Shown in pieces: positions 28,408 to 54,719 of a stretch of DNA of 59,308 bases. The stretch's first letter is position 1. Each line of letters starts with the position of its first letter. Origin of the DNA: Clostridia bacterium (GTDB lineage Bacteria > Bacillota > Clostridia > Oscillospirales > Acutalibacteraceae). A program made the translations under genes and the position numbers. The notes beneath the pieces are model-generated. The model saw only the letters and a program-made list of their open reading frames with translations, ran no database searches and was not told the DNA's origin. The DNA lies in NCBI GenBank assembly GCA_017415025.1, contig JAFQJH010000003.1:1-59308 (forward strand). Direction: 5' to 3'.

Positions 28408-28525
28408 GTCGGTGTTTATGGCGAAGAGGGTCCACCCGTTCCCATACCGAACACGGTAGTTAAGCTCTTCTGTGCTGAAAATACTTGGCGGGCAGCCGCC
28501 CGGGAAGATAAGGCGATGCCGACAT
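28408..28525 (+). rRNA. 5S rRNA, not linked to 16S/23S
   Basis: About 118 nt. The ends GTCGGTGT (28408-28415) and ATGCCGAC (28516-28523) form helix I with G-U pairs. The conserved core GTTCCCATACCGAACACGG (28438-28456) followed by AGTTAAGCTC is diagnostic. No other rRNA or tRNA gene is near. It has its own promoter and terminator. Ends are estimated to within a few bases. Confidence 0.96.
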
Positions 28526-54089: not shown

Positions 54090-54108
54090 AGTTTTTCTCC
54101 TCTGGTTT

Positions 54109-54453
54109 TTAACTGTTATTTTTTGCGGTAGTTACAGAAGCTATAAGTTTTCTTCTGATTGTACCGCTTTTATTGATTAATTTTTCGTATGTGCTTTTGT
54201 CTATTGAATTAACCCTGTAAAGTATTTCCAACCAATATTCAGTTTCGTAACATTCCTTTAAAGCGATTTCAAGTTTATGAATGAAATCGGCTCGGCTTTG
54301 TGCATATCTTGCTTCGTGAGAGTTTGCACCGATTGAAGAGCAAAAACGCAATAATTGATTTTTAAAAACACTTCTGTCTTTGATTGTGTCACAAATAGCG
54401 GTTGTTTCTACAGTAAGTTCTATTGCCAATTCTTTAATGGTTTTTTCATTCAT
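54109..54453 (-). CDS. Four-helix-bundle protein (23S rRNA IVS-protein/bAvd-like)
   Basis: A 114-residue, all-helical, charged protein of the TIGR02436 type, a fold shared by proteins encoded in 23S rRNA intervening sequences and by accessory proteins of diversity-generating retroelements. Typical pieces are FKNQLLRFCSSIGANSHEA and FIHKLEIALKECYETEYWLE. The ATG at 54453 is chosen because AGGAAG lies about 9 bp upstream. The longer frame to 54585 translates the palindromic array at 54468-54648 and is judged an artefact. No reverse transcriptase or rRNA gene is adjacent. The biological role is unknown. Confidence 0.78.
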   Translation of the reverse strand: MNEKTIKELAIELTVETTAICDTIKDRSVFKNQLLRFCSSIGANSHEARYAQSRADFIHKLEIALKECYETEYWLEILYRVNSIDKSTYEKLINKSGTIRRKLIASVTTAKNNS

Positions 54454-54467
54454 AAAAAACACTTCCT

Positions 54468-54648
54468 GCGATATACTCGCTGTTACTCGTGCGATATATT
54501 TGTTGCACAAATGCGATATAACCTCAATTGCTTCGGTTGCGATATAATATAAATTCTTGTATTCCGTCCCGCAGGGACATATCACATCACACGGTGATAT
54601 ATCGCGCCTTTCAGGTATATCGCAAATTCTTCCAAGAATTTATATCGC
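54468..54648 (-). repeat. Array of inverted GCGATATA/TATATCGC motifs
   Basis: On the plus strand there are four GCGATATA copies (54468, 54491, 54513, 54539) and then three TATATCGC copies (54598, 54616, 54641), spaced about 18-26 bp apart except for the 50-bp centre. Spacers are small hairpins, for example TTTGTTGCACAAAT (54499-54512) and GTCCC/GGGAC in the centre. The outer part of the inner pair is extended: AAATTCTTG near 54551 mirrors CAAGAATTT near 54634. The array forms the leader of the four-helix-bundle gene. It is not a CRISPR array because spacers are palindromic and motifs invert. Confidence 0.8.
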
Positions 54649-54690
54649 TGAATTCGCGATGCAAATTCAATATATTACAATAATAAATTC

Positions 54691-54719
54691 ATTATATCAC
54701 ATCAATATCACATAGACAA
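54691..54719 (-). promoter_or_regulatory. Promoter reading into the array and four-helix-bundle gene
   Basis: On the minus strand, TTGTCT (54714-54719) and TATAAT (54691-54696) with a 17-bp spacer. Its -35 overlaps that of the divergent promoter. Confidence 0.65.

Follow-up and report, generated by a model that had tools for sequence, protein, structure and literature searches.

Background

Several described systems share part of their plan with the locus reported here. A REPIN/RAYT system combines palindromic copies, non-autonomous and scattered through the genome, with a single cognate gene, group IIC introns insert behind terminator hairpins, and the DGR accessory protein bAvd has a helix-bundle fold that we take to be related to that of IVP. 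The nearest relative found in print is the intervening sequence (IVS) of Coxiella, for which an S23p ORF of the IVP family within helix 45 of the 23S rRNA is described and which is called selfish and possibly once mobile (PMC4990558). Mobility of the IVP family has been suspected since this rRNA IVS work (PMC4990558). A second published record is Gut-1 (RF01706), catalogued as a stand-alone noncoding RNA and marked in its source as certainly RNA, probably not cis-regulatory and present in human gut samples only (PMC2864571).

The sequence analysed here, referred to as the window, is a stretch of DNA of 59,308 nt. The element in it shares with the 23S rRNA IVSs of Coxiella and Leptospira the protein family, terminal inverted repeats and a seat in a hairpin (PMC4990558). 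It differs from them in lying outside rRNA, in its 4+4 motif/hairpin array, in its many dispersed gene-free copies and in its proteins, which in this sub-clade are mostly of a GANxxEA type, whereas a sample of the wider phylum was mostly NxxEG. Dispersed palindromic non-autonomous copies and one cognate gene are a plan held in common with REPIN/RAYT, but the cognate protein here is a four-helix bundle and not a Y1 transposase. The likeness to group IIC introns lies in the orientation-specific position behind terminator hairpins; Rfam gave no intron RNA in the window, and RVT_1 had no match in the window's assembly (83.6 % complete), which also sets the locus apart from a DGR. The match to Gut-1 covers the left half of the array, and this half belongs here to a longer element that is linked to IVP and whose stems are DNA-like. 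No earlier report of the element was found in a literature search that covered few subscription journals and no bioRxiv preprints. None of the known families tested was found here with its defining features as a system; on this footing the element is rated as new. Its mechanism is offered as a proposal. It probably represents (at a rough probability of 0.6) an undescribed family of mobile DNA elements of Oscillospirales-type Clostridia, whose helix-bundle protein would recognise its own array.

The window locus

The gene behind the array belongs to the 23S_rRNA_IVP family, and the IVS-like four-helix bundle named in an initial annotation of this DNA was borne out by both PF05635 (72.6 bits, cut-off 33.8) and TIGR02436 (81 bits, cut-off 24), each over its curated cut-off when scored on a 158-aa reading of the ORF. 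That longer reading was rejected, its start falling inside the array; the start codon is likely the ATG at 54453, behind AGGAAG, and the same ATG is used in close relatives. The sole PDB sequence match of a profile of 32 relatives was 2rld (E 8e-37). The neighbours of the gene are a cyclophilin gene and a radical-SAM gene. The window element is not inside a 23S rRNA gene, Rfam rRNA matches being confined to positions 1-234 and 28408-28524 of the window, and RVT_1 had no match in the assembly (G000; 2.09 Mb), in agreement with the earlier remark that neither an rRNA gene nor a reverse transcriptase is nearby. G000 has six PF05635 genes and one weak Y1_Tnp match. Another of its PF05635 genes (L008, G000:C4:92689) is flanked by long direct repeats holding GCAGAACGCAGAGTGC or a near copy.

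The array lies 5' of the IVP gene and in the gene's own orientation (minus strand). Counted as exact words on the forward strand, GCGATATA starts at 54468, 54491, 54513 and 54539 and TATATCGC at 54598, 54616 and 54641, giving seven copies within 181 nt. A diverged eighth, the inverse copy CATATCAC at 54578-54585, completes a 4+4 array, a layout shared by many relatives, and the spacers can be read as small hairpins; the roughly symmetric set of four and three motifs with tiny hairpins described at the outset is thus made up of exact copies and gains one more member. Both strands of the whole window held 8 motif matches against 1.63 expected, and at least 8 were found in none of 100 shuffles. 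Chance or low-complexity repeats as the origin of the array were ruled out by these shuffles and by those of upstream regions given below. The 13-nt inverted repeat listed in Table 1 connects the first unit of the array with its centre, and in one relative (L034) both of its arms are changed in a matched way (GAGATAAATTCC / GGAATTTATCTC).

By-eye comparison with element-free relatives places the right end of the element at approximately 54104, between the IVP stop codon and the cyclophilin ribosome site, so that this copy measures about 0.57 kb. Sequence matching 54691..54719 precedes the cyclophilin gene in element-free relatives, e.g. L125 and L127 (again by eye). Since the element separates the promoter of the cyclophilin gene from the ribosome site of that gene, IVP would now head the cyclophilin transcript.

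Table 1 Features of the element and its surroundings in the window (all on the minus strand; sequences in gene sense unless stated)
Feature	Position	Strand	Basis or remark
Cyclophilin promoter-like TTGTCT - 17 nt - TATAAT	54691..54719	-	Now ahead of the inserted element
Hairpin TGAATTTGC-ATC-GCGAATTCA, one T.G pair	54649..54669	-	Flush with first left motif; by eye; paired in fold
Array left half, Gut-1-like (RF01706)	54574..54650	-	33.8 bits, E 4.9e-5; gathering score 50
Left motif copies GCGATATA	54641-54648, 54616-54623, 54598-54605	-	
Diverged left motif copy GTGATATG	54578-54585	-	
Perfect inverted repeat, 13 nt	arms 54547-54559 and 54633-54645	-	Can close left half
Central hairpin GTCCC-TGC-GGGAC (plus strand GTCCC-GCA-GGGAC)	54566..54578	-	Sequence; paired in fold
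Array right half	54468..54546	-	Four TATATCGC units, hairpins between; likewise upstream of relatives
Ribosome-binding site AGGAAG	54462..54467	-	Immediately 3' of the last array motif; by eye
Four-helix-bundle (23S_rRNA_IVP) gene, 114 aa, ATG start	54109..54453	-	PF05635, TIGR02436
Downstream cyclophilin ribosome site	54097..54103	-	By-eye comparison with element-free relatives

Array and protein in related genomes

Relatives were the best 80 of 517 from a scan of genome contigs, in assemblies titled Clostridia, Oscillospiraceae, Clostridiales, Ruminococcus and similar. Arrays were scored with a detector for a 6-mer followed by its inverse copies in order within 350 nt upstream of the gene (threshold score at least 6), and L051 and L092 were left out for their short upstream sequence. 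The threshold was reached upstream of 64 of the 78 remaining IVP genes, against 0/73 control regions at 700-1050 nt upstream and 1/70 equivalent regions downstream, and by no shuffled upstream region (20 shuffles for each of the 78 loci). Occurrence of the array with this protein family elsewhere, which the initial annotation had made the test of its reading, was therefore found. The other 14 upstream regions scored below a full array, and those printed were mostly half or reduced arrays, with the left half alone at L047, L050, L055, L058 and L077 and the right half alone at L056 and L072; no array was seen in the upstream regions of L039 and L066. A sample drawn by means of the PF05635 profile comprised 35 loci, of which 19 scored at least 6 (17 upstream and two, L012 and L208, downstream of the gene), the highest control score being 4 or less.

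At seven loci (L026, L029, L030, L035, L072, L080, L082) a partial left half appears again soon after the IVP gene, and looks like a second copy begun and then broken off. Upstream of L046, right-half units are tandemly duplicated along with the start of the IVP gene.

The association does not extend to PF05635 in general. In the wider phylum, 57 of 299 genomes were PF05635-positive. The array was absent from all 30 loci retrieved there, most of them NxxEG in type, which rules out its generality to the whole family; as sampled, the array is restricted to the sub-clade of mostly GANxxEA proteins. Three wider-phylum loci (L305, L311, L320) have tandem direct repeats of about 6-9 nt before the IVP gene, e.g. 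AACTAGT and GGAGTCA, which recall the GACAGAT heptamers described ahead of the S23p ORF in Coxiella (PMC4990558). At L328 the IVP gene lies directly 3' of apparent 23S rRNA sequence and is probably an rRNA IVS. Phage cargo is an unlikely explanation, only 4 relatives (L301-L304) having been found in viral contigs.

The motif itself varies among array-bearing loci. Near relatives have TGCGATATA, and others have TCGATATA, GTGAAATA, ATGAAATA, TGAAGTA, TGATGT, GTTATAT and more, with unchanged architecture. When 13 motif classes, assigned by our own patterns, were placed on a tree of 83 proteins (113 columns), 16 changes were needed (minimum 12), against a shuffled mean of 39.8 with 0/200 as low; a tree of 80 rows, which omits three rows with broken frames (L068, L218, L232), again needed 16 (shuffled mean 37.9, 0/200 as low). 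The trees are short and many of their forks are open, so the result shows clustering and not an exact history. The three scoring PF05635 loci of G000 differ in motif (GCGATATA in the window, GATGAAATC at L010, ATGAAATA at L012), and this, together with the clustering on the tree, indicates that the motif follows the protein and not the host. These trees show joint inheritance of motif and protein. That the protein recognises the array, as first suggested, is kept as the best inference because the motif follows the protein; the RNA or RNP basis given for it is not supported.

Gut-1 and dispersed copies

The window's left half falls below the Gut-1 gathering score (Table 1), which was passed at the same position upstream of IVP in 3 of the 20 loci scanned (L069, 68.9 bits; L071, 76.2; L090, 52.0). 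The Gut-1 consensus starts with the CA that bounds the element. By this match, the left half of the array is the orphan Gut-1 RNA of Rfam. Gut-1 matches at E <= 0.001 were present in 37 of 60 related genomes (29 above the gathering score), with up to 48 per genome (G059) and 21 in the window's genome, and 14 control genomes gave one match (E. coli), below the cut-off.

The surroundings were read for 36 of the 84 Gut-1 matches in three genomes (G000, G010, G059). No IVP match was found at 31 of the 36 loci, of which 8 have less than 500 nt after the match; at the loci in full view, with at least 500 nt after the match, 23 of 28 have no adjoining IVP gene. The IVP gene stands right behind the array at L247, L266 and L267 and before it at L243, and at L259 an IVP gene ends about 500 nt before the Gut-1 array. 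Two copies that lie behind different tRNA genes, L245 and L246, share 98 % identity across 200 nt. Among 52 compared copy pairs the likeness starts at the boundary or at most 10 nt before it in 38, extends 24-72 nt further in 11 and begins inside the element in 3. A hairpin is common to the element copies in the pairs L255/L256, L261/L266 and L265/L269, and by these pairs the flush hairpin moves together with the element in some families.

A family consisting of left halves only was seen in G000 and G010 (L236, L237, L238, L240, L242, L248, L250, L251), and most of its copies end alike on the right, in a GTTAAGGGxCTGCGxCGC-like sequence. Copies of different families (L245, L246, L252, L257, L258, L260) carry AAATCGTTA-type repeats on their right side, and similar words occur near the element-free sites L274 and L280.

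Insertion sites

The left boundary of the element commonly adjoins a hairpin. For the 36 Gut-1 loci the boundary was set where the match to the Gut-1 model starts; a hairpin score of at least 7 was found there at 28 loci, compared with 37 of 1440 random positions. Upstream of IVP genes, a flush hairpin scoring at least 9 was found at 40 of 71 left ends against 14 of 1420 controls, the best of up to three positions being used for loci and controls alike; several rows of score 7 in this test are the element's own first hairpin, and 12 of the 71 left ends have no flush hairpin of score 6. Loci with no recognised left motif were left out (L035, L046, L049, L051, L056, L066, L073, L083, L092).

Elements are located at the terminators of tRNA genes and one tmRNA, at the 3' ends of rumA-like genes (L020, L022, L024, L026, L041, L050, L061) and of GGGtGRT-type genes (L065, L070, L075, L087, L146), both named by our own reading and not by family search, and just behind promoter-like sequences, the window included. 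At L041, a short loop comes after the host codons TCGAGACAGTA, then their inverted copy TACTGTCTCGA and then the array. Site comparison was made on the fetched genes that fitted peptide patterns (10 of 30 GGGtGRT-type, 7 of 30 rumA-like). An exact inverted copy of the coding end, at least 8 nt long, was present in 4 of 5 GGGtGRT-type genes with the element (not in L146) and 0 of 9 without it, and, among rumA-like genes, in all 6 that have the element and 0 of 7 that lack it, a count in which L050 is not included and in which the inverted copy of L020 is far off, its near hairpin being imperfect. As inverted copies occur only with the element, the hairpin at these gene ends arose with or after insertion, which contradicts a pre-existing hairpin as the sole target. 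A pre-existing hairpin does fit the tRNA terminators: G000 and G010 have different elements flush behind the terminator of tRNA-Ser, and at L272, L274, L275 and L280 the terminator is present and the element absent.

Element-free orthologous sites were found at the GGGtGRT-type, rumA-like and tRNA-Ser loci and also at the window locus, where the comparison of empty sites called for initially could be made. In eight of 17 other genomes of the same genus (L125-L131, L134) a divergent cyclophilin-like gene is kept no more than 700 nt from the radical-SAM gene and the element is absent, and in the remaining nine the neighbours differ or the sequence is too short; GCGATATA / GTGAAAT words, in either orientation, occur in none of the 17 in the 420 nt before the radical-SAM gene. 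The mobile element postulated in the initial annotation can thus be inferred from dispersed copies and element-free orthologous sites, though not in the RNP form proposed there.

Folding of the array

RNA stems tolerate G-U pairs, and the internal stem pairs of the spacer hairpins were therefore counted, alignment-free, in four motif classes. Left halves of linked arrays gave 334 Watson-Crick, 0 G.T and 5 A.C pairs, right halves 491 Watson-Crick, 11 G.T, 9 A.C and 109 G.A/A.G, and the stems of the 36 Gut-1 loci 448 Watson-Crick, 6 G.T and 4 A.C. The pooled ratio of 17 G.T to 18 A.C stands against 377 Watson-Crick, 21 G.T and 1 A.C in the tRNA acceptor stems of the fetched loci (p 1.8e-4). Left halves overall had 1 G.T beside 561 Watson-Crick internal pairs, and right-half stems lean to G.T (16 G.T, 11 A.C). 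Of 62 arrays, 49 fold better as the gene-sense strand than as its complement under DNA parameters, and 47 do so under RNA parameters. Among 50 right halves taken alone, the sense strand is the better one in 29 under DNA parameters and in 15 under RNA parameters, where the antisense is thus favoured.

The strongest rival explanation is a structured RNA or RNP, in which the array is a noncoding RNA or an mRNA leader that binds IVP and its dispersal is secondary or retro-mediated. The array is indeed the leader of the IVP gene, its sense strand out-folds the complement with RNA parameters as just given, and Gut-1 is an Rfam RNA family whose marking as certainly RNA stands in the source table (PMC2864571). 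Against this, the stems have no excess of G-U over A-C, unlike the tRNAs of the same loci, an indirect argument by which DNA folding fits better than the RNP proposed initially, and RVT_1 had no match in 16 of the 22 genomes with at least 8 Gut-1 matches or in the window's genome. We regard the RNA explanation as unlikely; folding of the array as gene-sense single-stranded DNA fits these pair counts better, and the perfect stems could alternatively be kept by recent copying of the arms.

Mobilisation and the proposed element

Across the 60 genomes the number of Gut-1 matches rises with the PF05635 count (Spearman rho 0.74 with p 1e-11; Fisher p 0.001 for presence), p-values that are optimistic because genomes and copies share ancestry, several genomes also being incomplete. 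Eight of the 37 Gut-1-positive genomes had no PF05635 match and 8 of the 37 PF05635-positive genomes no Gut-1. The number was uncorrelated with Y1_Tnp (rho -0.03) or RVT_1 (0.06), and the 22 genomes with at least 8 Gut-1 matches comprised 22 with PF05635, 12 with Y1_Tnp, 6 with RVT_1 and 8 with neither of the latter two. A reverse transcriptase or Y1 transposase acting in trans was rejected on these grounds, both being uncorrelated with Gut-1 number and absent from many high-copy genomes; the Y1 mobiliser that characterises REPIN/RAYT had no match in 10 of the 22.

These counts also bear on a regulatory explanation, in which IVP represses its own gene through the array as operator, slippage or passive duplication having caused the array to spread. 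It would account for the position of the window array between promoter and start codon and for a motif that follows the protein on the tree, but it leaves the full-view Gut-1 loci with no IVP gene in view (23 of 28) and the scaling of Gut-1 number with IVP count unaccounted for, and we consider it very unlikely. It is likewise very unlikely that the array is a passive, REPIN-like repeat which an unrelated transposase moves and which IVP accompanies as a passenger: dispersed palindromic gene-free copies are as in REPINs and Y1_Tnp occurs in 12 of the 22 high-copy genomes, but the count of Y1_Tnp, the one transposase family searched for, shows no relation to Gut-1 number, and IVP is present in all 22, 8 of which have neither Y1_Tnp nor RVT_1.

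We return to the proposed mobile DNA element, whose helix-bundle protein would recognise its own array. Genome comparison establishes that array and gene are linked, that motif and protein are co-inherited, that copies are dispersed, many of them gene-free, that some orthologous sites have no element and that copies lie flush behind hairpins; the steps of movement are proposed from these. A full element would comprise, in order, the flush hairpin, four motif copies with hairpins, a central stem, four inverted copies with hairpins, and the IVP gene. An IVP oligomer would bind its own motif array in the folded gene-sense DNA strand and bring it to hairpin-bearing target sites, and it may act in trans to mobilise the gene-free copies, as REPINs are mobilised by RAYT proteins. 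Cutting and joining would be carried out by IVP itself or by a host enzyme; we know of no catalytic residue in IVP.

Taken together, the observations allow a broader reading that we put forward tentatively, as possible but doubtful in its entirety. The locus would exemplify a new minimal class of mobile DNA element that has neither a recognised transposase nor a reverse transcriptase. A helix bundle of 110 residues would recognise its co-evolving motif in a folded array of single-stranded DNA, insert the array flush behind DNA hairpins and mobilise gene-free copies in trans. At a coding end, insertion would leave host codons copied in inverted form, and this copy would make up the 3' arm of the hairpin. 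Gut-1 would be one half of such elements, and rRNA IVSs would be a specialised branch that targets rRNA hairpins.

Conclusions

On this reading an orphan Rfam RNA, Gut-1, gains a genomic explanation, and the widespread S23/IVP four-helix bundle, a family of unknown function, gains a testable role in mobility. Because motif classes are matched to protein clades, the specificity of that role is directly testable. The findings point to a mobile element with no recognised transposase that may mark terminators and gene ends in many gut Clostridia.
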